In this document: positions 13,102 to 56,620 of the stretch, one piece after another | How the letters are laid out: the number at the start of each line of letters is the position of its first letter | Numbering within the stretch: the first letter of the stretch is position 1 | Assembly: GCA_900316255.1 (NCBI GenBank) | Contig: ONCI01000002.1 | Coordinates: forward strand, 21,072-85,071 | DNA length: 64,000 nt | From: an uncultured Eubacteriales bacterium | Lineage (GTDB): Bacteria > Bacillota > Clostridia > Oscillospirales > Oscillospiraceae | Direction of reading: 5' to 3' | Notes under the pieces: model-generated | What the model was told of the DNA's origin: nothing | Seen by the model: the letters and a program-made list of their open reading frames with translations, nothing else | Database searches by the model: none | Translations under genes and position numbers: made by a program

Positions 13102-13177
13102 CGGGGTGTAGCGCAGCTGGTAGCGCGCATGGTTCGGGACCATGAGGCCGCGAGTTCAAGTCTCGCCACTCCGACCA
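13102..13177 (+). tRNA. tRNA-Pro (CGG)
   Basis: 76 bases with CCA encoded. The acceptor stem CGGGGTG/CACTCCG pairs with one G-U; the anticodon stem CATGG/CCATG encloses TTCGGGA, giving anticodon CGG for proline codon CCG; the T stem is GCGAG/CTCGC. A consensus promoter lies upstream and a terminator directly downstream. Confidence 0.96.
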
Positions 13178-13213
13178 AAAAGGACGGGCCGCCAAATGGC
13201 GGCCCGTCCTTTT
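13178..13213 (+). terminator. tRNA-Pro terminator with 16-bp perfect stem
   Basis: Arms 13178-13193 and 13198-13213 with an AAAT loop; the right arm ends TTTT. The sequence beyond the right arm mirrors the tRNA itself (see next entry), so the stem can extend far into the tRNA. Confidence 0.9.
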
Positions 13214-13264
13214 GGTCGGAGTGGCTGAATGTGGGTTCGCGGCCTCATGAGACCAAACCATGCG
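13214..13264 (-). repeat. Inverted, decayed copy of the tRNA-Pro 3' half
   Basis: Read on the minus strand this matches tRNA-Pro from the anticodon stem to CCA: GCGCATGG, then CATGAGGCCGCGA, then GCCACTCCGACCA. The anticodon stem still pairs (CATGG/TCATG) around TTTGGTC, which would read UGG (proline), while the T stem is ruined and the 5' half is missing. It is a tRNA fossil or a tRNA-derived inverted repeat, not a working tRNA. Confidence 0.75.
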
Positions 13265-13413
13265 CAGCGTGGTTTGGGGAAAAGCGGCCTGCCGCTGCCG
13301 GTGGCAGATAAAGGCTGGCCGCTTTTCGCGCAGCGGTCGAAAAACACGAGGATCAGCGTAAGCCTGAGTGTTTTTCGGGCACCGCAAGCGGGCGCGCAGC
13401 GATGAGGCCGCGA
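13237..13413. repeat. Multi-hairpin element closed by 12-bp inverted repeats
   Basis: Outer arms 13237-13248 and 13402-13413 are exact 12-bp inverted repeats and both match part of tRNA-Pro. Between them are three hairpins: 13253-13260/13270-13277 (8 bp), 13280-13289/13317-13326 (10 bp) and 13338-13347/13368-13377 (10 bp). No start or stop structure suggests coding. After it, 13414-13595 contains nothing recognised. Confidence 0.7.
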
Positions 13414-13595
13414 GTTTCCTGCCCTCAGATGAAACCCTTGCTTTTCACCGTCTCCCGCTGATGGGATGCGGGCGGACGATCAAGGCTCGCCCCTGCGGCT
13501 GGGCTGGGGACGGAGGCGCGGAATGGGCTTCTCCCGACTGCACTTCACCCTTCTCTTTTTCCCTGTAAAAATCGATCTTTTCCCCCACAAAACAT

Positions 13596-13624
13596 TTGAC
13601 ATTCTCCATTGCACCATATAAAAT
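13596..13624 (+). promoter_or_regulatory. Sigma-A promoter of the 2-hydroxyacyl-CoA dehydratase operon
   Basis: TTGACA (13596-13601), a 17-base spacer and TAAAAT (13619-13624). Transcription would start near 13631, about 65 bases before the TTG start. Confidence 0.85.
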
Positions 13625-13694
13625 ATGACAGCTTGTGTCGTTTTCGGCACGAAGAGAGAAAAGGCAATTCGACGCAAAAGAGAGGAAAGCGATT

Positions 13695-14897
13695 TTGAAA
13701 GACTTAAAGCATCTGATTTTCTTTGAGGATCTGCTGCAGAACGCCGACAATGCGCTGATCCGCCAGGCGCAGAGCCAGGGCCGCGTGTGCGTGGCCTACG
13801 TCTGCGAGAACACCCCGGAGCCCCTGCTGAACCTGCCCGGCGCCTTCTCCGCCCGCCTGCGCGCCCCGCGCACTGGCTCCATGGAGATGGCCACCTATTA
13901 CATGACCAGCTTTCTCTGCGAGTACAGCCGTGCTCTGCTGGAGCGGGCCATTGAGGGCGGCTACAACTTTGCCGACGCCATCATCACCCCCGACGGCTGC
14001 TCCATGATGAACCGCTGCGTGGAGAACATGGAGCTGCTGAAGACCATGGGCAAGGACAAGGAGCACTTTTTCTACGAGTACATGGAGATCCCCATGAAGG
14101 CCGACGACAACGGCCTTGAGCTCTATGTGCTGCAGTGCCGGAACCACATCCTCAAGCCCCTGCACGACAACTACGGCATCGACATCTCCGACGCCGCCAT
14201 CCGCCAGGCTGTGAAGGAGCACAACCGGATCTGCGAGCTGATCCGCGCCATCGGCGAATACCGCAAGGGCGAGCATCCCCGCATCACCGGCTATGAGTTC
14301 GCGGTGCTGACCCTCTGCAGCTACGTCTGCCCCAAGGACCTGATCCTGGAGAAGCTGGAGGAGACCCTGGAAGAGCTGAAGACCCGGGAGCCCGACGAGA
14401 AGAGCGCCTACCGCGCCCGCGTGCTGGTGGTGGGCTCCGAGATCGACGACACCGACTTCATCAAGCTGGTGGAGGATTCCGGCGCCTACGTCTGCGCCGA
14501 CCGCTATTGCTACGGCTCTCTCCCCGGCCGGAACCCCATCGAGCTGAATGACGATGAGGACGCTCTGACCCAGATCTGCCGTATCTACATGAACCGGGGC
14601 CAGTGCCCTCGCTTCATGAACACCGAGAAGATGAACGCCCGGCGCGCCTATGTGGATCAGCTCGCCAGGGAGTATGAGGCCGACGGCATCATTTATGAGC
14701 AGATGAAGTTCTGCGATCCCTGGGCCTATGAGAAGATGCTGGGCTCCCACATCCTGCGCAGCGACTACGGCTACCCCGTGCTGGCCGTTGACCGCCCCTA
14801 TTCCATCGCCTCCTCCGGCCAGATGCGCACCCGCGTCCAGGCCTTTGTGGAGAGTGTGGAGATCAAGAAGATTCAGGGAGGCGAAAAGCATGAATAA
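13695..14897 (+). CDS. 2-hydroxyacyl-CoA dehydratase family protein, HgdB-like subunit
   Basis: 400 residues from a TTG at 13695, chosen because AGAGGAAA precedes it by about 8 bases and the promoter at 13596-13624 would start transcription at or before the GTG at 13635. Family features are a conserved cysteine in 'ADAIITPDGCSMMNR', the HgdB-type C-terminal signature 'IYEQMKFCDPWAYEK', and the end 'GYPVLAVDRPY'. These cysteines ligate a [4Fe-4S] cluster in the radical dehydratases (HgdAB, FldBC) and benzoyl-CoA reductases. Its stop overlaps the next gene by 8 bases. The ATP-dependent activator (HgdC/FldI) these enzymes need is not in the window. Substrate unknown. Confidence 0.85.
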   Translation: MKDLKHLIFFEDLLQNADNALIRQAQSQGRVCVAYVCENTPEPLLNLPGAFSARLRAPRTGSMEMATYYMTSFLCEYSRALLERAIEGGYNFADAIITPDGCSMMNRCVENMELLKTMGKDKEHFFYEYMEIPMKADDNGLELYVLQCRNHILKPLHDNYGIDISDAAIRQAVKEHNRICELIRAIGEYRKGEHPRITGYEFAVLTLCSYVCPKDLILEKLEETLEELKTREPDEKSAYRARVLVVGSEIDDTDFIKLVEDSGAYVCADRYCYGSLPGRNPIELNDDEDALTQICRIYMNRGQCPRFMNTEKMNARRAYVDQLAREYEADGIIYEQMKFCDPWAYEKMLGSHILRSDYGYPVLAVDRPYSIASSGQMRTRVQAFVESVEIKKIQGGEKHE

Positions 14898-16455
14898 GAT
14901 CCGCGGCGATATCCATTACGGTGATCTGTACAAGGACGGCGCCGTCGTCCGCAAACGCCGCGAGTGGCGCGGCCTTGTGGATACCCTCTACGATTACTCC
15001 CGCTGGCTCGGCATCATGCTGATCCTGGCGAAATTCATCGTGGTCCCCCGGAACATCAAGGCCATGCTGCGCTACCGCTGGATGGCAAACTACTTGGCCG
15101 TGCCCATGATGGTGGACCGGCACACCCAGGGTCTCCGGGGCGAATACTTGCGCATCTGCCACACCGAGCAGGACCTGATCATCGACGACGTGGCAAAGCT
15201 GCTGAACAACCTCTTCCGCGGCGACCGCCGCATCGGCAACGACACGGAGTTTTCCAAGAAGGTCGTGCTGGTGGACGAGAACGAGATGACCGCCGTGATG
15301 ATGGGCTTCCCCACCCTGAAGGGTCTCAGCCGGGAAACTCCCTCCACCTACGTCTCCGTGCTGCTGAACCAGCACGCCGCTCTGCACTACATCGACGTGG
15401 CCCAGCAGTTTGGTCTGGCCGGCGACGTGTGCCCCATGCCCGAGGCCGAGGCCGGCGTCTCCATCGAAGGCGACGCTCCGGTTCTGGGCGCCTGCGCCGT
15501 GCAGTGCAACACCACCTGCGACGGCTCCCTGCTCTCCAACGGCGTCATTTCCCGCCGCCTGGAGAATGTGGACGGCATCCCCGTGTTCCAGCTGGCCGCG
15601 CCTCTGCGCCACCGGGAGGATGACGTGCAGAAGTATGCCGCCCAGGAGATCAAAAACGCCATCGCCTTCATCGAAGAGCACACCGGCGAGAAGTGGGACT
15701 GGGACTACTACTTCGAGTGCGCCCGGCGTGTGAACTACGCCACCAAGTGCCGCCTGGAGTGGCTGGAGATGAACAAGACGCCCTGGCCCCAGGTCTTCGG
15801 CTCCAACCTGGCCCTCTACACCGAGACCAACTACATGGCCATCTGCGGCAAGATCCCGGCCTTTGAGAAGGCCGACCGCCGGATCAGCAAGCTGGCCGAG
15901 CAGGCTTACAAGAAAAAGAAGATGGCCGCCCGGGAGTACCGCCACCGGGCCATCGTCTGGGGCGTGCAGTCCCACTATTACATGGACTTTCTGGTGTGGC
16001 TGCTGAACTGCTGGGGCATCGTGCCCCTGACCGATATGCTCTCCATGGTCTCCACCCGGGAGCTGGTCACCGAGAACACCCCGGAGAACCGGGAGCAGGC
16101 CTATTACGACATGGCCTGGCTCACCGAGAACATGATCATGCGCAACCGCACCCACGGCGGCTACAAGGTGCTGCTGGACGAGCTGTGGGAGTACACCCAG
16201 GAGTTCAACGCTGACATGGTCATTCTCTGGGAGCACATGAGCTGCAAGGCCCTGGACGGCATGCACGGCATGTTTGAGGAGCGGGCCCGGGAGCTGGGCA
16301 TCCACCTGGTCTGGGTCAGCCACGATCTGTTCGATCCCCGCATCATCTCCCGCCAGGGCGTGCGCGACCAGATCAACAACTACATGCGCACCGTCATGCA
16401 GGAGGAGCCGGTGGACCCGTCCCTGGAGATCCTGCACGACGAGGAATCCTGGTAA
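14890..16455 (+). CDS. 2-hydroxyacyl-CoA dehydratase family protein, HgdA-like subunit
   Basis: 521 residues, somewhat longer than HgdA. The ATG at 14890 lies inside the end of the partner gene. Candidate cluster ligands are the cysteines in 'GACAVQCNTTCDGS' (about residues 200-213). Later text such as 'EMNKTPWPQVFGSNLALYTE' and the C-terminal 'NADMVILWEHMSCKALDG' fits the alpha-subunit fold. Together with the HgdB-like partner it would form a heterodimer carrying two [4Fe-4S] clusters in the cytoplasm. The N-terminal ~75 residues ('WLGIMLILAKFIVVPRN') are hydrophobic and might touch the membrane, which is unusual. Confidence 0.82.
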   Translation: MNKIRGDIHYGDLYKDGAVVRKRREWRGLVDTLYDYSRWLGIMLILAKFIVVPRNIKAMLRYRWMANYLAVPMMVDRHTQGLRGEYLRICHTEQDLIIDDVAKLLNNLFRGDRRIGNDTEFSKKVVLVDENEMTAVMMGFPTLKGLSRETPSTYVSVLLNQHAALHYIDVAQQFGLAGDVCPMPEAEAGVSIEGDAPVLGACAVQCNTTCDGSLLSNGVISRRLENVDGIPVFQLAAPLRHREDDVQKYAAQEIKNAIAFIEEHTGEKWDWDYYFECARRVNYATKCRLEWLEMNKTPWPQVFGSNLALYTETNYMAICGKIPAFEKADRRISKLAEQAYKKKKMAAREYRHRAIVWGVQSHYYMDFLVWLLNCWGIVPLTDMLSMVSTRELVTENTPENREQAYYDMAWLTENMIMRNRTHGGYKVLLDELWEYTQEFNADMVILWEHMSCKALDGMHGMFEERARELGIHLVWVSHDLFDPRIISRQGVRDQINNYMRTVMQEEPVDPSLEILHDEESW

Positions 16456-16470
16456 TCGGAGGAAAGAGAC

Positions 16471-16641
16471 ATGATGAAAACCTGCCTGAAGCTTCTTGGA
16501 AAGCTGCTGATCGCGGCGCTTGCCTTTTTCGCGGTCACCTTCACGATCTATTTCTTCAACCTGGACATGAAGGCCACCGCCCTGCTGGCCCCCTGGCTGG
16601 AAAAGTGGTACGATCACCAGGAGCACGACCAGTACATCTGA
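16471..16641 (+). CDS. 56-aa single-pass membrane protein
   Basis: A short gene, third in the dehydratase operon, with GGAGG eight bases before its ATG and 15 bases after the previous stop. One membrane helix (about 8-29, 'LLGKLLIAALAFFAVTFTIY') is followed by FFNLDMKATALLAPWLEKWY and a polar end rich in His and Asp. No family is named here. The placement and a terminator directly after it support a real gene. It could anchor the dehydratase at the membrane. Confidence 0.75.
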   Translation: MMKTCLKLLGKLLIAALAFFAVTFTIYFFNLDMKATALLAPWLEKWYDHQEHDQYI

Positions 16642-16648
16642 ACAATGC

Positions 16649-16675
16649 AAAAGGCCGCCTGCGGGCGGCCTTTTT
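16649..16675 (+). terminator. Terminator of the dehydratase operon
   Basis: AAAAGGCCGCC / GGCGGCCTTTT hairpin with TTTTT, eight bases after the stop of the small membrane protein gene. Confidence 0.92.
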
Positions 16676-16712
16676 CTATCTTCCTTCTGCCCCCTGTTTT
16701 TTCCGGAAACGG

Positions 16713-16741
16713 TTGATTCCTTCCGTCCTTCCGATTATACT
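16713..16741 (+). promoter_or_regulatory. Sigma-A promoter of the L,D-transpeptidase-like gene
   Basis: TTGATT (16713-16718), a 17-base spacer and TATACT (16736-16741). Confidence 0.8.
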
Positions 16742-16791
16742 GATATCGAAGAACAGCCGCCCATCGGCGGAGAAAAGTGAGGTTTTCCCAT

Positions 16792-17583
16792 ATGAAACAT
16801 TCCGGCATGATCGCAGCGCTTCTGATCCTGATGCTGGTGCTGACCGGCTGTGCCGCGGCGGAGGCCGCGCCGGCGGCCACCGAAGCCCCGGCAGTCCCCG
16901 GCGAATACGCGGGGATCGACGTACCCTCCCCCGAATGGGTGGGCAAGCTGGAGGCCGCCAAGGATGCCCAGCAGCTTCTGGTAGTGGCCGCCTTTGACGA
17001 AAGCGCCACCGGCGCCTGGGTCTCCCTCCACGAAAAGCAGCCCGACGGCAGCTGGCACATGACCATGACCTCCCCCGGCTTCATCGGCAAGAACGGTCTG
17101 GGCAAGACCAAGGAGGGCGACGGCATGACCCCCGTGGGCGTCTTCCACTTCAACCGGGCCTTCGGCATCGCCGCGGATCCGGGCTGCGCCATCCCCTATG
17201 TCCAGGTGGACGAGGATACGTACTGGTCCGGCGATCCCCGGGAGGGCTTCCGCTACAACGAGCTGGTGAGCCTGCAGGAGTTGCCGGATCTGGACCTGGA
17301 GAGCGGCGATTCCGAGCACATCATCGATTACCCCTACAACTATCAGTACTGTCTGAACATCAGCTACAACGAGGAGGGCACCCCGGGTCTGGGCTCCGCC
17401 ATCTTCCTCCACTGCCTGGGTGCGGCCCGGCCCTTCACCGGCGGCTGCGTGGCCATCCAGGAGGCCCAGATGCGCTATGTGATGCAGCAGGTGAACGAGC
17501 AGACAAAGATCGTCATCGACACCTACGACAAGCTTTCCGGCGGGGAGCCCTGGCCCTCCAGCTCCTGGCCCCAGGACCGCTAA
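16792..17583 (+). CDS. L,D-transpeptidase-like (YkuD-type) lipoprotein
   Basis: 263 residues. The signal peptide ends at a lipobox (LVLTGCAA, Cys at about 19), followed by an Ala/Pro/Glu linker. The catalytic region is 'AIFLHCLGAARPFTGGCVAI' (about 202-221): the His and the Thr-Gly-Gly-Cys-Val correspond to the HX..[S/T]xGC signature of YkuD transpeptidases. Such enzymes form 3-3 peptidoglycan cross-links or attach proteins to the wall. 'TVGV-FHFNRAFG' type text (seen as 'TPVGVFHFNRAFGIAADPGC') is the usual substrate-loop region. The start at 16792 has GTGAGG upstream. Single-gene unit with its own promoter and terminator. Confidence 0.85.
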   Translation: MKHSGMIAALLILMLVLTGCAAAEAAPAATEAPAVPGEYAGIDVPSPEWVGKLEAAKDAQQLLVVAAFDESATGAWVSLHEKQPDGSWHMTMTSPGFIGKNGLGKTKEGDGMTPVGVFHFNRAFGIAADPGCAIPYVQVDEDTYWSGDPREGFRYNELVSLQELPDLDLESGDSEHIIDYPYNYQYCLNISYNEEGTPGLGSAIFLHCLGAARPFTGGCVAIQEAQMRYVMQQVNEQTKIVIDTYDKLSGGEPWPSSSWPQDR

Positions 17584-17594
17584 AGCCGATTCCC

Positions 17595-17631
17595 AAAAGG
17601 CCTCCTGTCCCATGGGACAGGAGGCCTTTTT
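17595..17631 (+). terminator. Terminator after L,D-transpeptidase-like gene
   Basis: 16-bp perfect arms (17595-17610 and 17615-17630) around CATG, ending TTTTT. Confidence 0.93.
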
Positions 17632-17678
17632 CTGGGTAAACGCAGAGCGCTTTCCGCCTTTTCTTCCGCCGGCGGATG

Positions 17679-17687
17679 TGCTATACT
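17679..17687 (+). promoter_or_regulatory. Extended -10 promoter of the small lysine-rich membrane protein
   Basis: TGC followed by TATACT (17682-17687). The -35 position is only weakly TTGACA-like. It lies 30 bases before the start codon. Confidence 0.6.
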
Positions 17688-17717
17688 GAATCCATCTATC
17701 CGACAGGAGGCATGGAA

Positions 17718-17942
17718 ATGATCGCAAAGAAAGCCGTGGAGAAAATCGCGGAAAAAGCGGTGGAAAAGAAAAAGAAGAAACTGCGCAAAAAGGTCAAGCG
17801 CGTTCTGCGCCTCAGCCTGCTGGGCGTCTGCCTGCTTGGCACCGGCTATTTTCTGGGCGTCCATCACCGGGTGATCGCCGCCATGATCAAGGGCAAAAAG
17901 CCGCCGAAAGCACCGAAGGGTCATTGGCTGCACAAAGCCTGA
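17718..17942 (+). CDS. Small lysine-rich single-pass membrane protein
   Basis: 74 residues. AGGAGG (17705-17710) is seven bases from the ATG at 17718 and one base from an ATG at 17712, so the former is chosen. The N-terminal third is a run of lysine-rich pseudo-repeats (AVEKIAEKAVEKKKKKLRKK), then one membrane helix (about 34-51, 'LSLLGVCLLGTGYFLG') and a basic tail. Net charge is very high and positive; it would be expected to hug anionic lipid. No family recognised. Confidence 0.65.
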   Translation: MIAKKAVEKIAEKAVEKKKKKLRKKVKRVLRLSLLGVCLLGTGYFLGVHHRVIAAMIKGKKPPKAPKGHWLHKA

Positions 17943-17998
17943 AGCCAAAGTATGTATGAAGGGCCGGTTTTTCGCATACACTGTGAACAGGTGATGAA

Positions 17999-18475
17999 AT
18001 GAACGCGAAAAACTGGAAACCCTATGCCGCCTGGATCCTGTTCACGGAAGCCGTGGGCGGCCTGGCAGGCTTTTTGACCCGCTCCGGCATGGAGATCTAC
18101 CAGAACACGGTGCTGAAGCCGCCGCTGTCTCCCCCGCCCATTGTATTCCCCATCGCCTGGGGCATCCTCTATGCGCTGATGGGCGTGAGCGCGGCCAGGA
18201 TCTGGCTGAAGCCGCCCTCTGTGGGGCGGAGCAGAAGTCTGCGGCTTTTCCTGCTGCAGCTGGCCTTCAACTTCGTGTGGAGCTTTCTGTTTTTCTCCTT
18301 CCGGGCCTATGGGCTGGCCTTCCTGTGGCTGGCGGTGCTCTGGGTCCTGATCGTGCGGATGCTGCTGTCCTTCTACGACGTGGACCGGCCCGCCGCCTGG
18401 CTGCAGCTCCCCTATCTGCTGTGGGTGCTCTTTGCCGCCTGGCTGAACCTGGGCGTCTGGAAGCTGAACGGCTGA
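17999..18475 (+). CDS. tspO: TspO/MBR family protein
   Basis: 158 residues with five membrane helices, the full TspO fold. Typical motifs are 'LKPPLSPPPIVFPIAWGILY' (about 40-59), matching the family's PxW(x)FPxxWxxLY segment, and a tryptophan/asparagine pair in 'LAFNFVWSFLFFSFRAYG' (about 88-105). TspO proteins bind porphyrins and related ligands and are linked to stress and tetrapyrrole handling. GGTGATGA lies just before the ATG. A single gene followed by a repeat element. Confidence 0.93.
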   Translation: MNAKNWKPYAAWILFTEAVGGLAGFLTRSGMEIYQNTVLKPPLSPPPIVFPIAWGILYALMGVSAARIWLKPPSVGRSRSLRLFLLQLAFNFVWSFLFFSFRAYGLAFLWLAVLWVLIVRMLLSFYDVDRPAAWLQLPYLLWVLFAAWLNLGVWKLNG

Positions 18476-18521
18476 GGGCGTGCTGCATAACACAAAGAAG
18501 ATCGCAAAGCTCTGATCATAA

Positions 18522-18666
18522 CGTAGGGGAGGGGCTTGCCCCTCCCGGCAGCAGGAAGCATAGATTCAAGAATAGGTTCGGCGAATTCGCAGATTTTACG
18601 AATTTGTCGAACCTTTTTACACATTACGGCCAGGTTCCGTCGGGAGGGGCAAGCCCCTCCCCTACG
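18522..18666. repeat. Palindromic dispersed element, copy A
   Basis: Ends are 26-bp perfect inverted repeats (18522-18547 and 18641-18666), reading CGTAGGGGAGGGGCTTGCCC inwards. The centre holds a second imperfect palindrome (GTTCGGCGAATTCG ... CGAATTTGTCGAAC). Copies B (26410-26561) and C (52778-52920) share ends and centre. Confidence 0.9.
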
Positions 18667-18707
18667 GTGCTGACCGGGCTATGCATTTATGATGCAGCGA
18701 GCCTTTT

Positions 18708-19337: not shown

Positions 19338-19351
19338 AGTGTTCTCCTTTG

Positions 19352-19378
19352 AAAAAGCCGCCCTTCGGGCGGCTTTTT
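19352..19378 (-). terminator. Terminator after the TPM-domain gene
   Basis: AAAAAGCCGCCC / GGGCGGCTTTTT with a TTC loop; T-runs on both sides. It lies 7 bases past the TPM-domain stop codon. Confidence 0.9.
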
Positions 19379-19384
19379 GCTGAT

Positions 19385-20263: not shown

Positions 20264-20278
20264 GTTCCCCGCCTCCCT

Positions 20279-21409: not shown

Positions 21410-21436
21410 ATCTGTCCTCCTCTCGTAAGTTGCTGA

Positions 21437-23812: not shown

Positions 23813-23822
23813 TCCCATACAC

Positions 23823-23896
23823 GCGGATGTAGTTCATCGGTAGAACGCCGGCTTCCCAAGCCGATAAGGGGGGTTCGATTCCCCTCATCCGCTCCA
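23823..23896 (+). tRNA. tRNA-Gly (CCC)
   Basis: 74 bases, CCA encoded. Acceptor GCGGATG/CATCCGC is fully paired; the anticodon loop TTCCCAA gives CCC for codon GGG; T stem GGGGG/CCCCT with loop TTCGATT. The first anticodon-stem pair is C-A (mismatch). Confidence 0.96.
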
Positions 23897-23903
23897 CAAA
23901 AAT

Positions 23904-23927
23904 GACCGCCTCTCGGCGGTCTTTTTT
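23904..23927 (+). terminator. tRNA-Gly terminator
   Basis: GACCGCC (23904-23910), TCTC loop, GGCGGTC (23915-23921), then six Ts. Confidence 0.93.
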
Positions 23928-23951
23928 GGTGGAGCGGATGAGGGGATCGAA
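23928..23951 (-). repeat. Inverted copy of the tRNA-Gly 3' end after its terminator
   Basis: Read on the minus strand, 23928-23951 matches tRNA-Gly from the T loop through CCA (23874-23896) with one missing T. With the terminator it makes an inverted repeat of about 37 bases (23874-23910 against 23915-23951). The copy is followed by ATTATGTC, as at tRNA-Arg. Confidence 0.85.
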
Positions 23952-23975
23952 TTATGTCCGTACATGCCGAGGACC

Positions 23976-24775: not shown

Positions 24776-24781
24776 TTTTTT

Positions 24782-47180: not shown

Positions 47181-47195
47181 TCCGAAGGAGAAATC

Positions 47196-48457: not shown

Positions 48458-48458
48458 A

Positions 48459-48722: not shown

Positions 48723-48745
48723 CTGACATACAGGAGGATCGAAAT

Positions 48746-50579: not shown

Positions 50580-50580
50580 G

Positions 50581-50627
50581 AAAACGTGCGGCGAATTCGC
50601 GATCTTTACGAATCCGCCGCACGTTTT
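50581..50627 (+). terminator. Terminator of the SpoIIE-phosphatase operon
   Basis: AAAACGTGCGGCG (50581-50593) and CGCCGCACGTTTT (50615-50627); the loop holds GAATTCG...CGAAT, the same core as in the dispersed palindromic elements. Confidence 0.88.
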
Positions 50628-50649
50628 CTCGTTGTCCTTTGATGATCCG

Positions 50650-50685
50650 AAAGGCGGACGGCCAATGGCCGTCCCTACGGCCGCC
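50650..50685. repeat. GGACGGCCAATGGCCGTCC mini-palindrome
   Basis: GGACGGCCA/TGGCCGTCC hairpin followed by CTACGG. Nothing else is recognised between 50686 and 50793. Confidence 0.6.
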
Positions 50686-50793
50686 TGCGTTTCGCACCCA
50701 AGTCAGAGACGAACTTCGCTCGTCCGCCAAATCGCAGAACAGCCGTGTTCGTCTTCCGCGCCGGGGAAGGCTTTGGTGCCGCTGCCTGTGGTA

Positions 50794-51837
50794 TCAATAC
50801 TCGTCGAAGAAGGCCTCGTCCCGGACCCAGCAGGCATAGAGGATAACGCCATCCTCCGTTCCGGCATTGGCAACGGGCTTGCCGTCTTCATCCAGGATCT
50901 GCTCTCCGGTCCCCGCCGGGCCGGTGAAATAGCCCTTGAACAGAAAGCCCGGCAGCTCGGGAGGCGTGACGTTCTTCTCAATCTCCCCGTTCAGGGCGCT
51001 GACGCTGCGCTCCGGCAGCAGCGCTTCCCCTGCGGCGAGCTCCCCGGTCCCGTCGCTGAAATACGCCCGGCCTTCCACCAGGTCATACATGCCGACCCGC
51101 CCGTCGCTGAGGCGCAGACAGGGCAGATAATCCCGCACGGGCTCGTCCTCCTGCCAGATGCGGCAGGCATAGATCCGCAGATCGTACTCTCCCTCGATGT
51201 CATGGGTCCCGGCGATCTCCATATCCATGTGCTGGCGGGAGAAGAGGAAGAGGTGCTGCTCGCAGGGCTCCTCGAATTCATAGAGGGTCCGGCCGTTGAC
51301 CACGTCCGGGTACTTGTAATTGCCCGGCCGGAACCAGGCGACCGTGCGCAGGGCGGAATCCTCATACTGGCTGTACTGGATGCCGGTGACGGTATAGAAG
51401 TGGGCGGGATTGCCCTGGCTCATGTGATAGCCCACTTCCATGTACATGTGATTGTCCCGGTTGAAGCAGCCGAAGAACCAGGTGTCCTTCACTTTGAAGC
51501 CGCCGGGGCACTCAAAATCCAGGTAAAAGCGGGTGTTGTTGGTGGGCGAAATACCGGTGTCGATATAGGTCTGGGCGTCCAGGGTGGAGTTGGTGCAGGC
51601 GGCGTAATCCAGAAGCCTGTATTCCTCCGGCAGCAGATCGTCCCGCAGCGTGATCTCGGTCTTCAGGTCCGGCGTGGGCATGGGCTCCGGCGTAGGCTCG
51701 GGCGTGGGTTCCGGCGATGCCTCCGGAGCGGATACGCTGATTCCCTCTTCCTCCGGTACGATCTCTGCCGTCCTGCCACAGGCAGCAAGGCCGAGAACCA
51801 GCATGCCCAGCAGAATGAACAACAGAATCTTCTTCAT
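50794..51837 (-). CDS. Lipoprotein with lectin-like region and terminal InlB/Flg_new-type repeat
   Basis: 347 residues. Start at 51837 (GGGGATAG upstream), giving signal peptide 'MKKILLFILLGMLVLGLAAC' with the lipidated Cys at 20; a longer frame to 51900 has no site. A Pro/Glu/Thr spacer follows ('SPEPTPEPTPEPMPTPD', about 40-57). The region about 75-260 contains Trp/Tyr-rich strands ('FECPGGFKVKDTWFFGCFNR'), compatible with a jelly-roll or LamG-like fold. The end 'FLFKGYFTGPAGTGEQILDE' (about 305-324) is a Listeria-Bacteroides (Flg_new) repeat. Likely surface binding protein; no known family for the whole. Confidence 0.7.
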   Translation of the reverse strand: MKKILLFILLGMLVLGLAACGRTAEIVPEEEGISVSAPEASPEPTPEPTPEPMPTPDLKTEITLRDDLLPEEYRLLDYAACTNSTLDAQTYIDTGISPTNNTRFYLDFECPGGFKVKDTWFFGCFNRDNHMYMEVGYHMSQGNPAHFYTVTGIQYSQYEDSALRTVAWFRPGNYKYPDVVNGRTLYEFEEPCEQHLFLFSRQHMDMEIAGTHDIEGEYDLRIYACRIWQEDEPVRDYLPCLRLSDGRVGMYDLVEGRAYFSDGTGELAAGEALLPERSVSALNGEIEKNVTPPELPGFLFKGYFTGPAGTGEQILDEDGKPVANAGTEDGVILYACWVRDEAFFDEY

Positions 51838-51922
51838 CAGGCTATCCCCTTCCGCATTTTCTTCTCCGGTAATCATAGGCACATTCGAGGCTTTTGTCAA
51901 TGCCTTCTCCTTCCCAAACTCT

Positions 51923-51950
51923 TTTCAAAGCGTCTCCGCTGTGCTATGAT
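51923..51950 (+). promoter_or_regulatory. Extended -10 promoter of the TraX-like gene
   Basis: TTTCAA (51923-51928), a 16-base spacer, TGC then TATGAT (51945-51950). Confidence 0.7.
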
Positions 51951-51995
51951 AAAGAGGCCGACAAAACGGCAGCAAGCGAAGGAGGGGGCCTCCCT

Positions 51996-52718
51996 ATGAT
52001 ACAACAGTCTGTTTTCCCGGAGCGCTTCCGGGTGATGAGCGGCAGCGCCCTGAAGGTGCTGGCCATGGTCGCCATGCTGGTGGACCACTCCGCCATCTGC
52101 TTTCAGCCGCTGCTGAACCGCTATCTGTTCACCCTTTTTGATGTCCGCTTCACGCCCTATGTTCTGCTGCGGGGCTTCGGGCGCATCGCCTTCCCCATCT
52201 TCTGCGTTTTGCTGGCGGAGGGCTTTCGCCACACCCGGGACCCCAGGCGCTATGCTCTCAGCCTGTTTCTCTTTGCCCTGATCTCCGAGGTTCCCTATGA
52301 CCTCTTCAACTGCGGGGCTCTGCCCTTTGAGCGGCAGAACGTGTTCTTCACCCTGCTGCTGGGGCATCTGGGCATCTGGTGTCTGAAACGCTTCCGCCAA
52401 ACGCCTCTGCCCAGCAGCCTGACGCTGATCGCCTTGGGGATCTGCGCGGCAAAGCTGAACGCGGACTACGGCTGGAAGGGCTTTCTGCTGATCCTGCTGC
52501 TCTATCTTCTGGCGGAGCAGCCCGTGGTCCAGGCTTTTGCGGGCATCACCCTACTGGGCTGGCCCGGCGGCGTGGCCTGTGCCTTTCCCTTCCTGAACCT
52601 CTATAACGGGGAGCGGGGCTTTGTGCGCGGCAAGGCCGCCAAGTACTTCTTCTACTGCTTCTATCCCGTGCATCTCACCATCCTCTGGCTGCTCCACCGG
52701 CACTTCTTCGGGTACTGA
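51996..52718 (+). CDS. TraX family membrane protein
   Basis: 240 residues with about seven membrane helices. 'SALKVLAMVAMLVDHSAICF' (about 15-34) is the TraX family's opening, with 'GRIAFPIFCVLLAEGFRHTR' (about 66-85) and 'YFFYCFYPVHLTILWLLHR' near the end. Start at 51996 has GGAGGG upstream. Some TraX proteins acetylate conjugative pilin, but in Firmicutes most are chromosomal and act on unknown, perhaps surface-polymer, targets. No conjugation genes are nearby. Confidence 0.88.
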   Translation: MIQQSVFPERFRVMSGSALKVLAMVAMLVDHSAICFQPLLNRYLFTLFDVRFTPYVLLRGFGRIAFPIFCVLLAEGFRHTRDPRRYALSLFLFALISEVPYDLFNCGALPFERQNVFFTLLLGHLGIWCLKRFRQTPLPSSLTLIALGICAAKLNADYGWKGFLLILLLYLLAEQPVVQAFAGITLLGWPGGVACAFPFLNLYNGERGFVRGKAAKYFFYCFYPVHLTILWLLHRHFFGY

Positions 52719-52777
52719 CCGAGTATGAAAAAGGGCGTGCTGAAAAACGAAAGAACAGGCGGAGACCTTGGACTTCG

Positions 52778-52920
52778 CGTAGGGGAGGGGCTCGCCCCTC
52801 CCGGCAGCACAATGACTTTTCATGAAAAAGATCTGTGAACTCGCAGATGGTACGAATTCGCCGAACACTCTTCGCTATACGAGCCTGCTTCCGCCGGGAG
52901 GGCACAAGGCCCTCCCCTAC
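52778..52920. repeat. Palindromic dispersed element, copy C
   Basis: Ends CGTAGGGGAGGGGCTCGCC and GGCCCTCCCCTACG; the centre includes CGAATTCGCCGAAC. Flanks (AGGGCGTGCTG) also resemble copy A. Confidence 0.88.
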
Positions 52921-52960
52921 GGCGGTGACTGCGGCGTACGCCTTTTACTGTAAGGTCAAA

Positions 52961-52990
52961 AAAAGACTGTGAACAAGAATTCACAGTCTT
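52961..52990 (-). terminator. Terminator after the phosphoribosyltransferase gene
   Basis: AAAGACTGTGAA (52961-52972) and TTCACAGTCTTT (52979-52990), with A/T runs on both sides. Confidence 0.92.
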
Positions 52991-53007
52991 TTTCATTGTT
53001 TTCCCGC

Positions 53008-53562
53008 TCAGTCCTTGACGGTGCCGTCGGCGTTGAAGAGCGGGAGCTTGCCCAGGACGATGATATCGTCCCGATCATAGGCTTCGCCCTCGGCCAGAAC
53101 GGCCATCTTGCCGGCAATGATGCCGCCGGCCTGGTTGACCAGCTCTTCCGTCGCCCGCAGGCTCTCGCCGGTGGAGATCACGTCGTCCAGGATCAGGATG
53201 CGCTTGCCCTTGATCATCTCGGCGTCGGCCTTGTCCAGCACCAGCTTCTGCACATGCATGGTGGTGATGGAGCGGACGCTGACCTCAAAGACGTCGGTCA
53301 TGTAGGCCTTGGCGCCCTTGCGGGCCACAAAGTACTTCTCCGCACCACTCTGGCGGGCCATCTCGTACAGCAGGGGGATGGACTTGGCCTCGGGAGCCAG
53401 CAGGTAGTCATACTCTGGAGCCTTTTTCAGCAGCTCGGCGGCGCAGTGGACGGTGAGCTCCACATCGCCGAACATGACGAAAGCGCCGATGTACAGATCG
53501 TCCGTGACCTTGCAGATGGGCAGATCCCTCTTCAGGCCGCAGATGTCCATTTCATAAGTCAT
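53008..53562 (-). CDS. Purine-type phosphoribosyltransferase (adenine PRT-like)
   Basis: 184 residues. The PRPP-binding motif is 'RILILDDVISTGESLRA' (about 122-138). An upstream purine-site loop 'YLLAPEAKSIPLLYEMARQS' (about 53-72) and 'YFVARKGAKAYMTDVFEVSV' are typical of Apt/Xpt proteins. Combines a purine base with PRPP for salvage. Whether adenine or xanthine is used is uncertain; the length suits adenine phosphoribosyltransferase-like proteins of Clostridia. Single gene. Confidence 0.85.
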   Translation of the reverse strand: MTYEMDICGLKRDLPICKVTDDLYIGAFVMFGDVELTVHCAAELLKKAPEYDYLLAPEAKSIPLLYEMARQSGAEKYFVARKGAKAYMTDVFEVSVRSITTMHVQKLVLDKADAEMIKGKRILILDDVISTGESLRATEELVNQAGGIIAGKMAVLAEGEAYDRDDIIVLGKLPLFNADGTVKD

Positions 53563-53688
53563 GGGGTTTCCCTCCTATGTGAATTCAATATTACGACTCA
53601 TTCCCTCGGTATTCCACCGGAACACCGATATTTTATTTTACAGGAAACGCGGAAAAAATCAAGAGGGAAAATGGTCGAAATACAAAGA

Positions 53689-53712
53689 ACCGCAGGTTTT
53701 CAGGCCTGCGGT
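53689..53712 (-). terminator. Terminator after the HtrA gene
   Basis: ACCGCAGG (53689-53696) and CCTGCGGT (53705-53712), followed on the minus strand by TCTTTGTATTT. Confidence 0.78.
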
Positions 53713-53760
53713 CCTTCGTTTGGGAGAAAAGAGAGGATATAGGAGTAGAAAAGCATCAAA

Positions 53761-55341
53761 TCAGGGTTCCGCGGCAGGCGCCGCGGATTCCGCCTCAGGG
53801 GTGCGCTCGTCGAACACGATGGTGACGGTGCGGCTCTCCCCGGCACGGTAGTAGGTCAGCTCCGCGCTGTCGCCGGCATTGTACTGGCGGATGGCGGAAC
53901 GCAGATCGGAGGGGCTCTCGATGGTCACATCGTCCAGGGCGGTGATGATGTCCCCGGCAGTGAGCCCGGCCTTTTCGGCCGCGGAGCCCTGGGACACGTC
54001 GGCCACATAGGCGCCGAGGGGCATGTTGTAATACTGGGCGACCATGGCGTTGTAGCGCTCATCGGTCCAGATGCCCAGGTAAGCCTTGCCGGTGACATAG
54101 CCCTTGGTGACCAGATCCTCGGCGATGCGGGCGGCGTCGCTGCTGGGGATGGCGAAGCCCAGGCCTTCCACGTCACTGCCGCTGTTCTTGGCGGTGACGA
54201 TGCCGACCACTTCGCCCTTGGTGTTATACACAGGGCCGCCGGAGTTGCCGTGGTTCACGGCGGCGTCCAGTTGGAACATGGGGATATCGTTGGCACCCTC
54301 GGTGGTGATGCTGCGGTTCAGGGCGCTGACATGGCCGGTGCTCATGGAAAACTCCAGCTCGCCCAGGGGATTGCCCACCACATAGATCTCGTCGCCCACC
54401 TGCATCTCGTCGCTGTTGCCCAGCACCGCAGCCTGCAGGCCGCTGGCCTCGATCTTCAAAACGGCCAAGTCGTTTACCTCTTCCTTGCCCACGATCCGGG
54501 CCTCATATCTGGTGCCGTCGTAGAGCATAACGGTCACCGGCAGGCTGCCCTTATCCGCGTCCTCGACCACGTGATAGTTGGTAAGGATGTAGCCGTCCTC
54601 GGAGAGGATGAAGCCGGAGCCGGATACGGTGCCGGTCTGGGTGCCGAAAAAGCTCTGGGTGGTCACCTTGGTGGTGATGCCCACCACCTGGCTGCAGGCC
54701 AGCTGATAGATCTGGGCCGGGCTCATCTGGCCGGCGACGCTGGCAACGTGGGAGACCGCCGAGCTCTGGCGCTCGGCCGCCGCGGCAACGGCTGCGGCAG
54801 TCTCGGCGTCCGCCTGGCTGTTCGCCTCCAGCGCCGTCTCCAGGGCCTGGAAGCGTTTGTTGCTGGCAAAGGTGCTGAACCCGGCGCCCACACAGCCGCC
54901 CAGCAGGGCGCAGACCAGGCACAGGGCCACAGCGCCGCGCAGGCCCAGCTGCCGCCTGGCGGCAGACTTTGCGCGCTTCTCCTTCTCCTGCCGCACAGGA
55001 GGGGTATAGTAGCGGGGCGGCGTGGTAGTGGAACCCGCCGGTTCAAAGTGCGCGTCGGCATAGACGGGCGGCTTCTCTTCCGGGCGGTAGCCGGCGCTTT
55101 CGTACCAGCTGTTCTCCGCGGCACGGCTCTCCGCCTCGGGAGCGGCTTCCTCCGTCCCGGTCGGTTCCGGCGCCGCGGAGGGCTCCGCTTCCATCGCGGG
55201 CTCGCTTTCCTCAGCGGCTGGAGCGGCTGCCTCGGTTTCCGGTGCAGCTTTCTCCGCCATGGGAGAAGCAGATTCCATATTGTCGGCTTCCGCTTCGGTC
55301 ACGGAAGCTTCTGTCTCAACTCTTTCTTCGAGTTCCGACAT
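53761..55341 (-). CDS. HtrA/DegP-like S1C serine protease with PDZ domain
   Basis: 526 residues. An unusual cytoplasmic N-terminus of about 130 residues rich in Glu/Ala/Pro, then one helix (about 136-156, 'GAVALCLVCALLGGCVGAGF'), a coiled-coil-like linker (about 163-195) and the S1C protease (about 215-420): His in 'LTNYHVVEDADKG' (about 256), Asp in 'EEVNDLAVLKIEA' (about 290), Ser in 'AAVNHGNSGGPVYNTKGE' (about 366). A single PDZ follows (about 430-510, 'AAEKAGLTAGDIITALDDVT'). It degrades misfolded exported proteins. AAAGAGG precedes the ATG. Confidence 0.93.
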   Translation of the reverse strand: MSELEERVETEASVTEAEADNMESASPMAEKAAPETEAAAPAAEESEPAMEAEPSAAPEPTGTEEAAPEAESRAAENSWYESAGYRPEEKPPVYADAHFEPAGSTTTPPRYYTPPVRQEKEKRAKSAARRQLGLRGAVALCLVCALLGGCVGAGFSTFASNKRFQALETALEANSQADAETAAAVAAAAERQSSAVSHVASVAGQMSPAQIYQLACSQVVGITTKVTTQSFFGTQTGTVSGSGFILSEDGYILTNYHVVEDADKGSLPVTVMLYDGTRYEARIVGKEEVNDLAVLKIEASGLQAAVLGNSDEMQVGDEIYVVGNPLGELEFSMSTGHVSALNRSITTEGANDIPMFQLDAAVNHGNSGGPVYNTKGEVVGIVTAKNSGSDVEGLGFAIPSSDAARIAEDLVTKGYVTGKAYLGIWTDERYNAMVAQYYNMPLGAYVADVSQGSAAEKAGLTAGDIITALDDVTIESPSDLRSAIRQYNAGDSAELTYYRAGESRTVTIVFDERTPEAESAAPAAEP

Positions 55342-55423
55342 GCTCAGGACCTCTTTTGCTTTTATTTTATGGTCCTAAAATACCCCCGATTTATGTCTTT
55401 GGCATGAACAAAGCTCAAAATGA

Positions 55424-55945
55424 TTATGAACAATCGCCGCTGCAAAGCAGGCTTTTCCTTGCCACCAGGATCATCCCGCCCTCCTGCTCCACCTGGCGGA
55501 TCACAGAAAAGCCGTTTTTCCTCCAGAAGTGGGCGGCCTGCGGATTGTCCCGGTCGATCCCCAGAAGCACGGCGCCGTACCCGCTCTTCCCCAGGCAGGC
55601 GCAGACTTCTCCGATGATCTCCGAGCCGATCCCCCGTCCCTGGAGGCTTTTGTTCATCATGAAGAAGCCGATAAAGCAGTCCCGCTCCTCCGGGTAGCCG
55701 TCGACCAGGTCCATGACCGCGACGAGGATGTCCCCGTCAAAGAAGCCCACATAGTATTTGTCGGCAAGCGTCTTCCCCGGCGGTGTGATATGCAGGTCCC
55801 GGAGGATCTCCTCCCGGGAGATCTGCCTGCCGCAGTACGCGTAATACTGGGTGTTTTCCCGGCAGAGAGCCAGAATCGCATCCGCGTCGGCGTCCCGCAG
55901 GACACGGACCCGGCAGCGCCTGCTCAGTTTCGTAAGATCGATCAT
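55424..55945 (-). CDS. GNAT family N-acetyltransferase
   Basis: 173 residues from the ATG at 55945 (GGCGGTGA upstream); an open frame reaching 56035 runs over the promoter region. Acetyl-CoA motif A is 'SLQGRGIGSEIIGEVCACLG' (about 106-125), with R-x-x-G-x-G/A, and motif B ends 'NPQAAHFWRKNGFSVIRQ'. Acts on an unknown amine in the cytoplasm. Ends about 80 bases before the convergent... same-strand HtrA start, so it may be upstream of htrA in one unit. Confidence 0.88.
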   Translation of the reverse strand: MIDLTKLSRRCRVRVLRDADADAILALCRENTQYYAYCGRQISREEILRDLHITPPGKTLADKYYVGFFDGDILVAVMDLVDGYPEERDCFIGFFMMNKSLQGRGIGSEIIGEVCACLGKSGYGAVLLGIDRDNPQAAHFWRKNGFSVIRQVEQEGGMILVARKSLLCSGDCS

Positions 55946-56490
55946 GATGTCACCGCCTGTCTGTCGGTTTATAAGAATAGTATACAGGAGTCTGCGCGCC
56001 GAGGCAAGAAGAGCCTGCGGCGGGACGCAGGCCAAAGCCTACCCCGCGCCGTAGGGGCGATTCACGAATCGCTCGCCGCTCTTCTCTACCGCGCTATCGT
56101 CCAGTCTTTTGTCCCGGCTCCGCCGGGACGCACGTCAAAGCCTTCCCCGCGCACGGGGAAGGGGGACCGCTTGCGGTGGATGAGGTCCCCGCGAAGCGGC
56201 AATTCTCCGCTGTCACTTTCTCCGCGCTCTTATCCAGCACCCTGTCCCGGCTCCGCCGGGACGCACGCTGGTTGGGATTCGCCGAAGCCTTCCCCTTGAG
56301 GGGAAGGTGGCATCCGCCGATCCCCCGCAAGGCGGATGACGGATGAGGTGTCATAAGCTGCTCTGGTATTCTGCCTCCTGTCCTTCGCTTGCATCCGATT
56401 TCCCCTTGCGGGAGACGGGGAAATCTGATAGCGGTATCGTCCAGTTTTTGAACTGGACGATGAAAGCCACCTATGTGGCTTTCTGACATA
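55946..56490. repeat. 540-bp intergenic repeat cluster
   Basis: No gene. TGTCCCGGCTCCGCCGGGAC occurs at 56107 and 56249. REP-like double hairpins lie at 56145-56199 (CCTTCCCCGCG...CGGGGAAGG) and 56283-56352 (CCTTCCCCTTGAGGGGAAGG then CATCCGCC...GGCGGATG). A GAAAGCCAC/GTGGCTTTC hairpin sits at 56463-56484, and GTAGGGGCGA text near 56051. Confidence 0.75.
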
Positions 56491-56511
56491 ATTCGAATCC
56501 CTTAGCGTGCC
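56491..56511 (+). repeat. Inverted copy of the tRNA-Arg 3' end after its terminator
   Basis: Plus-strand ATTCGAATCCCTTAGCGTGC equals the T-loop-to-CCA part of minus-strand tRNA-Arg, minus two bases. It is the third such copy in the window (with tRNA-Pro and tRNA-Gly). Beyond it on the minus strand comes ATTATGTC. Confidence 0.85.
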
Positions 56512-56544
56512 AAAAAAGCCGGCCCCTATGGGGTCGGCTTTTTT
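56512..56544 (-). terminator. tRNA-Arg terminator
   Basis: AAAAAAGCCGGCCCC (56512-56526) and GGGGTCGGCTTTTTT (56530-56544), loop TAT, one G-U. Confidence 0.9.
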
Positions 56545-56620
56545 GGCACGCTGTAAGGGATTCGAACCCCTGACCTTCTGGTCCGTAGCCAGACGCTCTA
56601 TCCAGCTGAGCTAACAGCGC
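56544..56620 (-). tRNA. tRNA-Arg (ACG)
   Basis: 77 bases, CCA encoded. Acceptor GCGCTGT pairs with ACAGCGT (1-72 is G-U). The anticodon loop CTACGGA gives ACG, read as ICG for CGU/CGC/CGA. T stem AGGGG/CCCTT with TTCGAAT. It sits next to the arginine-catabolism genes. Confidence 0.96.

Follow-up and report, generated by a model that had tools for sequence, protein, structure and literature searches.

tRNA genes of the window and their adjoining sequences

ARAGORN identified three tRNA genes, and no others, in the window, that is, the whole 64,000-nucleotide stretch of contig ONCI01000002.1 (assembly GCA_900316255.1, hereafter the source genome) that was analyzed. Behind each of them a terminator precedes an inverted copy of the gene's own 3' end, and in all three cases (3/3) the tRNA's own sequence scored best, in agreement with the initial annotation. 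The gene encoding tRNA-Arg(acg) lies on the minus strand (56544..56620). Behind it, sequence reading placed a terminator-like sequence (56513..56543, minus strand), followed by an inverted copy of the tRNA 3' end (56492..56512, plus strand; score 35 versus 30), which forms the left arm of what we term a family-1 unit, and by the family-1 core with its three hairpins (56384..56497, minus strand), which was matched by the covariance model R1 with 105.6 bits and an E value of 1.7e-26. The right arm, a direct tRNA copy, is missing from this unit and was found by eye in a paralogous unit in L028.

The tRNA-Gly(ccc) gene (23823..23896, plus strand) is followed by a terminator-like sequence, likewise identified by reading (23897..23929, plus strand), and by an inverted copy running from the CCA to the T loop (23930..23951, minus strand; score 39 versus 29), the left arm of a decayed family-1 unit. 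A remnant of the core start, AATTATGTCCGTACATGCCG, was read behind tRNA-Gly (23950..23969, plus strand); the rest of the core was not recognizable there, and the R1 search of this region gave no match. The motif AATTATGTC, which had been noted after both the Gly and the Arg inverted copies, was confirmed in the sequence.

The third gene, tRNA-Pro(cgg) (13102..13177, plus strand), is followed by a terminator-like, near-perfect palindrome read from the sequence (13178..13213, plus strand). The imperfect inverted copy behind it (13213..13265, minus strand) extends from the CCA past the T loop into the anticodon arm and had a local score of 49, against at most 27 for all other tRNAs of the genome compared with the same 250 bases. 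The body of this unit (13266..13401, plus strand) is not a family-1 core, having no R1 match at E ≤ 1, and a dispersed hairpin repeat within it was read behind tRNA-Ser(gct) and tRNA-Met as well. Its right arm is a direct partial copy of gene bases 41-55 (13402..13416, plus strand; direct score 30 versus 22). The tRNA-Pro case is thus of a different kind, with longer arms than family-1 units.

Architecture of the family-1 units

Intact units consist, in order, of the terminator, an inverted T arm (positions 56-63/65), a conserved core of about 105 bases that forms three hairpins and ends in ATGCAAG, and, as the right arm, a second copy of the 3' half of the tRNA, in direct orientation and beginning at C56. 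The direct copy, which lies farther downstream, had been missed in the first reading. Some units hold one or more genes and a further terminator between the first terminator and the inverted T arm. Unit size ranges from about 180 bases to 2.3 kb, and tandem units occur.

Arms were compared with the adjoining tRNA in 76 units, obtained from 133 R1 matches (106, plus 27 of 43 chosen for a nearby tRNA) by accepting those with a CCA-bearing tRNA at most 60 bases away and readable boundaries, and by removing duplicates. At each of positions 56-63, the inverted arm differed from the tRNA directly upstream, which was of 16 kinds, in only 0-3 of the 76 units, and the right copy likewise in 0-3. The inverted copies had been described as running from the T loop to the CCA; this holds in the window, but across the 76 related units only positions 56-63 are reliably copied, and acceptor positions 66-75 mostly differ. 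Adjacent runs of T probably produce a spurious result at position 76 of the inverted arm.

Family-1 units adjoin at least 16 kinds of tRNA. Among 62 cores (57 from 80 examined matches and five from the source genome), the nearest core neighbour carried a different right arm in 53; a second comparison of arms with tRNAs took 48 of the 62. The arms follow the tRNA, and the cores do not sort by tRNA. A common repeat inserted regardless of the tRNA is ruled out, since the arms follow the tRNA. The initial annotation had gone further and dismissed any common mobile repeat, which was mistaken: units behind many different tRNAs have a core in common, and it is the arms alone that are specific to the tRNA.

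Left and right copies were compared in 75 of 149 units, and differed in 17 of the 75 at 44 positions, a few of them misregistered or shifted by one base. At these positions the inverted arm matched the tRNA in 31 instances, matched the right copy in 6, and matched neither of the two in 7. The pairing of the inverted arm with the right copy is therefore not kept after insertion. Foreign arms were found in L185 and in the second unit of L283. In L185 the tRNA has the native sequence and the right copy the foreign one, a pattern better explained by entry at the CCA end, or by repair at a later time, than by a plain crossover in the T loop.

Folding and covariation

We then examined the site as a four-way junction formed by the two arms and the three hairpins. 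In this structure 98.2% of 3853 alignment cells were paired, compared with at most 46.7% when the structure was slid along the alignment. Double-change cells numbered 786 versus 200 in shuffles, and 30 of the 39 pairs had double changes. This strong covariation indicates a predicted junction whose structure is kept more than its sequence. Within the hairpins, G-T accounted for 15 and A-C for 14 of 2854 cells (0.5% each), as against 41 G-U of 456 (9%) in tRNA stems of the same genome. Strong hairpin covariation almost without G-T points to folded DNA rather than RNA.

Evidence for insertion

The tRNA-Pro(tgg) site is empty in the source genome, and the orthologous sites in L296 and L191 are filled. 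Their flanks are 91-92% identical to the source genome over 1.2-1.4 kb upstream, and the source-genome terminator was found after the last right copy in both, with 7 extra bases before it. A third filled tRNA-Pro(tgg) site, L312, is about 70% identical upstream, and the filled site of L407 matches at the junction only. The 3' part of the tRNA is duplicated at the far end of the insert, and the empty site is without the duplicate. An extra unit adjoins the tRNA at three loci, Pro-tgg, called with orthologous flanks, and Arg-acg and Ser-gga, called on matches of only 54 and 87 bases, respectively; at these loci the newest unit thus appears to be the one adjoining the tRNA. Units were very probably inserted at tRNA 3' ends, and the earlier suggestion that the copies are scars of integration pointed in the right direction, given the empty orthologous site and the right-hand copies of the 3' half. 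We infer from such sequence comparisons that units move; no free circular form or excision was seen.

Distribution

That every tRNA gene carries an inverted copy, as had been proposed, is true of the window (3/3) but not of the source genome, in which 9 of 38 tRNAs had their own inverted copy (score of at least 26, at most 150 bases downstream, with the last 32 tRNA bases as query). Sequence reading raised this to about 12 of 38, the three extra copies scoring 22-24. In sister genera, one of 73 tRNAs (28 loci) passed the same test, with a score of 27 and a 16-base match lying 49 bases past the tRNA.

Whole-genome searches with R1 found units in at least 54 of 101 genomes of the genus, which consists of uncultured bacteria known from ruminant guts, and in no other genus when 245 genomes of the order were sampled. 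These counts are lower bounds, strict filters having been applied and at most 31 or at most 12 candidates scored per genome. Among the outcomes named beforehand as speaking against the observation were its absence from relatives and its restriction to a few tRNAs; other genera indeed yielded no units and only part of the tRNAs have a copy, yet units recur in at least 54 of the 101 genomes. The unit-yielding genomes are draft assemblies, and the 60 loci collected came mostly from unit-rich ones. In viral contigs, 93 stretches held a 14-mer; R1 found no units in 80 of these, and the remaining 13 gave one partial unit, which flanks an integrated element (L537). A plasmid search for units was without result. 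Rfam returned no known structured RNA family, its eight matches (six loci) all being tRNA, and no description of such tRNA-adjoining units was found in the open-licence literature.

Cargo genes

Gene-length cargo was found in at least 7 of 118 units. These comprised 43 units and 75 measured out of 80 examined (five had no readable right boundary), the 80 being drawn from 90 R1 matches. The previous tRNA copy was found for 60 of the 75; the other 15, and 11 of the 43, were without a measured gap, which makes 7 of 118 a minimum; L384 and L413, both counted among the seven, were picked out by hand from such units. One unit carries a complete XhoI-type restriction-modification system (PADLOC; endonuclease, 3e-82; N6_N4 methylase, 3e-43). 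In six of the seven gene units the longest cargo ORF runs in the sense of the tRNA; the exception is L295, whose antisense ORF (114 aa) exceeds its sense ORF (98 aa) in length. The folded site lies at the 3' end of the cargo gene, and two of the seven units have a promoter-like sequence of their own. None of the ORFs carried by these seven was identified as an integrase, and a minimal unit has no room for an integrase gene.

Search for the recombinase

The recombinase of the units was not found in this analysis. The integron integrase model TIGR02249 gave no match over the cut-off in 29 genomes, nor in 14 controls, which leaves the search without a positive control, and absence from draft assemblies is not final. 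None of the tyrosine recombinase clusters (42 ORFs with the motif, with part of the integrases compared) tracked the units. Y1-like matches were obtained in 15 of 24 genomes, including 7 of 12 without units, and were missing from 4 of 12 unit-rich genomes (G000, G330, G339, and G307), among them the source genome, which is 96% complete.

Four tRNAs of the source genome have an integrase gene no more than about 300 bases away, and none of the four has a family-1 unit. Integrases also lie beside tRNA-Lys and tRNA-Pro 3' copies in L341 and L294; these proteins, of 425 and 465 aa, were rejected as the enzyme of the units, as they adjoin longer tRNA copies and apparently belong to separate insertions. 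The IMG/VR contig L537 has tRNA-Ser(gga) followed by an insertion that encodes a 417-aa integrase; beyond the insertion come a tRNA 3' copy that starts at the T loop and then a unit truncated by the contig end. The T-loop site of tRNA-Ser that is used by the units is also used by an ordinary integrase insertion.

Proposed mechanism and alternatives

The reading we favor, with somewhat better than even confidence, is that each inverted copy is the left arm of a small mobile cassette, similar to those of integrons, that has the 3' end of a tRNA as its attachment site. The two arms would pair on one DNA strand over 8-10 bp while the hairpins fold, and a site-specific recombinase would recombine this folded structure with the matching tRNA, at its T loop or its 3' end, much like the joining of a folded attC to attI by an integron integrase. 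Duplication of its 3' half, together with the terminator behind it, would keep the tRNA functional. We give this folded-site mechanism an even chance. Several results weigh against the cassette reading: the recombinase searches without a find, the departures of the inverted arm from the right copy, the place of the foreign sequence in L185, the integrase-bearing insertion in L537, and the lack of any circular or excised form among the sequences. That it amounts to a recombination system distinct from integrons, with tRNA genes as platform, arms that copy the T arm of the adjoining tRNA and are rewritten for each new tRNA, and one core that colonizes many tRNA kinds and delivers defense and other genes, is a tentative proposal to which we attach rather less than even confidence.

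Identity from the T loop to the CCA is the classic attB of tyrosine integrases that target tRNA genes. The units could be conventional satellites whose double-stranded att sites are used in trans by the integrase of an ICE or prophage resident in the genome; in that case the inverted T arm would be an accessory binding site and the hairpins would have another use. The integrases near four source-genome tRNAs and beside the copies in L341 and L294 fit this explanation, and the insertion in L537, at the same tRNA-Ser(gga) site, shifts the balance slightly toward it from the cassette reading. We nonetheless consider it unlikely: one core occurs at 16 tRNA kinds with arms adapted to each, the covariation of the four-way junction almost without G-T has no evident role in a plain double-stranded site, and the four integrase-adjoining tRNAs are without a family-1 unit. 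Single-strand mobile hairpin elements of the Y1 (IS200/RAYT) type would account for small, hairpin-rich, mostly non-coding units and are compatible with the Y1-like matches, but these matches are missing from unit-rich genomes and present in unit-free ones. The long direct duplication of a tRNA half is not known as a Y1 product, and we regard this origin as very improbable.

Two explanations dispense with a recombinase. Template switching at the terminator palindrome could copy the tRNA 3' end backwards, with quasi-palindrome correction keeping the hairpins perfect. The palindrome read as unbroken from the terminator through the CCA in several units, the near-perfect stems in which G-T and A-C are equally rare, and the closer agreement of the inverted arm with the tRNA than with the right copy are all in keeping with such copy-back, which had been proposed in the initial annotation and may indeed make or refresh the inverted arm. 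As an account of the whole unit we think it improbable, as it leaves unexplained the conservation, behind 16 kinds of tRNA, of a core whose unpaired bases are constant, the right copies with the original terminator behind them, the foreign arms, and the gene cargo. The annotation had also suggested a read-through transcript that folds the inverted copy onto the tRNA 3' end and blocks or marks mis-terminated precursors. The geometry in the window permits such a hairpin and the inverted arm agrees with the tRNA, but the acceptor positions are not conserved, both strands have few wobble pairs, units were found in only 54 of 101 genomes (a lower bound) and behind a minority of tRNAs, and insertion was seen at an orthologous site; we hold this RNA function, too, to be highly improbable.

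Comparison with known systems

Mobile DNA of bacteria often lands at tRNA genes, and the elements known from such sites are usually tied to one or a few tRNAs. Here one hairpin core lies behind at least 16 tRNA kinds with matched arms, and a complete restriction-modification system is part of the cargo. Should the folded-site reading prove true, the cassettes would capture genes in integron fashion by a second route, and this in a genus with no integron integrase match over the cut-off. The units may also explain antisense-tRNA text, the source of spurious protein families, in such genomes.

Integrons, as described in PMC11641012, have small, promoterless cassettes with an imperfect palindromic site of 60-150 nt recognized by its shape, arranged in tandem arrays and entering mostly at a fixed platform site. 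The units share with them the small size, the folded palindromic site at the 3' end of the cargo gene, the tandem arrangement, and the newest unit adjoining the platform, the latter with orthologous flanks at Pro-tgg and on short matches at Arg-acg and Ser-gga. They differ in having a tRNA gene as platform, arms that correspond to the T arm of that same tRNA and vary with it, a four-way junction as site, and no integron integrase match over the cut-off in 29 genomes; most units are without a gene, and two of seven gene units have a promoter-like sequence, whereas integron cassettes are given as promoterless (PMC11641012). No attC R and L boxes, extrahelical bases, or AAC/GTT cleavage site were discerned when alignment A1 was inspected by eye.

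With elements that use tRNA sites (ICEs, prophages, satellites, and tycheposons), the units have in common the duplicated tRNA 3' part, the tRNA left whole, and cargo genes. Tycheposons are given in PMC10872708 as tRNA-bordered elements of 4-200 kb with a tyrosine recombinase; the units, in contrast, range in length from about 180 bases to 2.3 kb, and none was seen to contain a recombinase gene. They also differ in having a covarying hairpin core and an inverted T arm, and in belonging to a single core family that occurs at 16 kinds of tRNA. Small palindromic repeats such as REPINs and MITEs are likewise short, mostly non-coding, hairpin-forming, and present in many copies per genome, but the units differ from these in lying at tRNA 3' ends or tRNA 3' copies, in having tRNA-specific arms and no fixed terminal repeats, and in being able to carry genes.

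tRNA genes of the window and of its genome

Each of the three tRNA genes in the window was followed by a terminator-like palindrome and then by its own 3' end in inverted copy. When the remaining tRNAs of the source genome served as the control, the best fit to each copy was its own tRNA, with values of 49 versus 27 for tRNA-Pro, 39 versus 29 for tRNA-Gly, and 35 versus 30 for tRNA-Arg. The source genome (2.7 Mb in 136 contigs) has 38 tRNA genes, of which nine passed a simple test for an inverted copy of their own and approximately 12 had one when the sequences were read. The initial annotation, that every tRNA is followed by a terminator and its own inverted 3' end, therefore holds for the window but is not a rule of the genome. 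Behind tRNA-Arg of the window lies a unit of the commonest kind (family 1) lacking the right copy, behind tRNA-Gly only the decayed left end of a unit, and behind tRNA-Pro a unit of another kind with longer arms. The system could not be demonstrated from the window on its own.

Two other repeats were observed in the window. At 56285-56354 is a dispersed repeat of approximately 66 bases containing CCTTCCCCTTGAGGGGAAGGTGGC; of the 54 genome matches listed, about 44 fall on this repeat, which looks MITE-like. A hairpin repeat at 13286-13390, CTGCCGGTGGCAG ... GCAGCGGTCG ..., is also present at loci L040, L039, L056, and L327; judged by eye, it lies within hairpin A of the family-1 core in L040 and L056 as an apparent insertion. 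Of six tyrosine recombinase genes detected in the source genome, four lie within approximately 300 bases of a tRNA, namely Ala(ggc) on contig C113, Leu(cag) on C131, Ser(cga) on C23, and Ser(tga) on C64.

Anatomy and distribution of the units

Reading downstream of the positive tRNAs revealed that the commonest unit comprises the inverted copy, a common sequence (AATCATGTC, three hairpins, and ATGCAAG), and, last, a direct tRNA copy that begins at C56. In the source genome, the units at Gln(ctg) and Ser(gct) have a 36-base terminator in common, with two differences. A pattern search detected units in 28 of 101 genomes of the genus, and R1, a covariance model built from 34 units, detected them in 54 of the 101 (E<=1e-4), including 14 of the 34 of good quality. 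Outside the genus, R1 found no units in 245 genomes of the order under strict filters and with 12 scored candidates per genome. The exact 15-mer occurred only in the source genome among 295. The motif was near a tRNA in 12 named records, all Oscillospiraceae, Ruminococcaceae, Clostridiales, or Clostridia assemblies, whose source, where stated, was ruminant rumen, omasum, or colon.

By eye, two further core types with a right tRNA copy stand behind tRNAs, family 2 (L025, L296, and L038) and family 3 (L022 and L437); the inverted T arm is present in family 3 as well, and not always in family 2. The arm principle may be common to unrelated cores.

A probable folded DNA site in the units

In an alignment of 100 distinct units fitted to the structure, the 39 pairs of four helices (the two arms and hairpins A, B, and C) were standard in 98.2% of 3853 cells, versus at most 46.7% for slid versions of the pairing. 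Double changes were found in 30 of the 39 pairs, with 786 double-change cells versus 200 in shuffles. R1 came from a separate MAFFT alignment, for which the RNAalifold consensus gave the same four-helix fold. Among 2854 hairpin cells there were 15 G-T and 14 A-C, and G-U made up 41 of 456 in the acceptor and T stems of the source genome's tRNAs. Wobble is rare on both strands, which points to a DNA-hairpin constraint or DNA-level correction rather than to RNA. A search of Rfam with six loci matched tRNAs only.

The arms match the tRNA

We compared arms in 76 units having a tRNA directly upstream, representing 16 tRNA kinds. Mismatches between the inverted arm and the tRNA occurred in 0-3 units per position at 56-63; they were seen in 13 units at position 64 and 17 at position 65, and the number climbed from 24 to 67 across 66-75. 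Over 56-65, 50 units had no mismatch. For the right copy the numbers were 0-3 at 56-63, 6-12 at 64-71, and 18-37 at 72-76, with 26 units free of mismatch over 56-76. Where the tRNA T loop reads CAAG instead of CGAA, both arms of its units carry the matching change. The nearest core neighbor had a different right arm for 53 of 62 cores, right arms being compared over 16 bases with drifted copies of one tRNA kind counted as different. The arms follow the tRNA, and the cores are not sorted by tRNA.

At 31 of the 44 positions where the left and right copies disagree, the inverted arm matches the tRNA; at six it matches the right copy, and at seven neither. Since the inverted arm sides with the tRNA at most of these positions, its match to the right copy is not maintained once the unit has inserted, a result that fits drift of a used site but equally a refreshing of the arm from the tRNA.

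Units seem to enter beside the tRNA

The tRNA-Pro(tgg) of the source genome is empty, while two other genomes with upstream sequence 91-92% identical over 1.2-1.4 kb carry one or two units there. At these filled sites the terminator of the source genome's tRNA stands after the last right copy, preceded by seven extra bases. A third site (approximately 70% identity upstream) agrees with this picture of insertion, as does a fourth, L407, at its junction only. At Arg(acg) and Ser(gga), the sequence lying immediately behind the tRNA in one genome is separated from it by an additional unit in a second genome, as judged from matches of 54 and 87 bases, respectively. As the extra units at all three tRNAs adjoin the tRNA, new units seem to enter beside it.

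The acceptor stems of the tRNAs checked were fully paired except for one mismatch in tRNA-Lys; this tRNA-Lys(ttt) stem, with its mismatch, is identical in all four genomes seen (L009, L289, L305, and L313). The right copy in L185 reads as the tRNA-Arg of another species while the tRNA beside it is native, and the arms of the second unit in L283 are one base off the tRNA-Gly of other species, suggesting that both units came from outside with their arms attached.

Some units carry genes

The gap between the preceding tRNA 3' half and the model start at the inverted arm, measurable in 60 of 75 units, was 32-46 bases in 46, 62-185 in 10, and 504-873 in four. Among 118 units surveyed (these 75 and a further 43), at least seven carried gene-length cargo. 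These encode 98 aa in the sense of the tRNA (L295, where a longer ORF, of 114 aa, runs antisense), a lipoprotein-like 161 aa (L342), 116 aa with a below-threshold DUF4279 match (L291), 175 aa (L334), an XhoI-type endonuclease and methylase forming a restriction-modification unit (L386), a double GNAT protein (L384), and an HTH protein (L413); the right copy has diverged in the last two. In all but L295 the longest ORF runs in the same direction as the tRNA.

In L384 and L413 the unit starts with a terminator, and a promoter-like TTGCCG-17-TATGAT (TGTTATGAT in L384) overlaps the 3' stem of that terminator. L442 has the identical promoter-like start, which matched exactly at only eight places in the 101 genomes, two of which (L436 and L438) look unrelated. 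The leader of L384 and L413 is common also to L440 and to the gene unit following the restriction-modification unit in L386. The gene of this last unit, at 2758-3559 after the right copy, encodes a Vat-like acetyltransferase (257 bits, below the cut-off of 300) and has the promoter-like terminator and leader, with no core closing its right side.

At L294 1009-2732, behind a tRNA-Pro unit, are genes for a CHAP-domain protein and a GNAT protein. The latter by eye resembles the cargo of L384, which is at tRNA-Ser, and cargo may therefore move between tRNAs.

A cassette reading and its alternative

Our best reading is that the units are cassettes whose attachment site is folded DNA and which recombine at the T loop or the 3' end of the tRNA. 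Insertion, arms, fold, cargo, and position beside the tRNA form its established part. The unit would fold as a single strand, and a site-specific recombinase would join the folded site to the tRNA, the crossover presumably falling at the T loop or 3' end. Counting against cassettes, our searches for the recombination enzyme in these draft genomes found none, and the inverted arm does not keep its match to the right copy. Conventionally, the units would instead use ordinary double-stranded tRNA attachment sites, acted upon in trans by integrases of resident ICEs or prophages. An IMG/VR contig (L537 1-8462) favors this a little: an ordinary insertion with a 417-aa integrase, sharing the T-loop site, is bounded by tRNA-Ser(gga) on one side and a tRNA 3' copy on the other, and a family-1 unit, truncated at the end of the contig, follows that copy in its flank.

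Relation to known systems

No earlier description of such units was found in the portions consulted of the open-licence literature, PMC11641012 and PMC10872708 included. The units are like integrons in three tested features: a folded site, its location at the 3' end of a gene, and entry beside a platform. The test for an integron integrase was negative, as far as draft assemblies allow, and no attC boxes were visible by eye, and we therefore do not call them an integron. From tRNA-site elements they differ in that no integrase was seen inside the units and in a core not tied to one tRNA, whereas in the test for insertion they behaved as such elements do.
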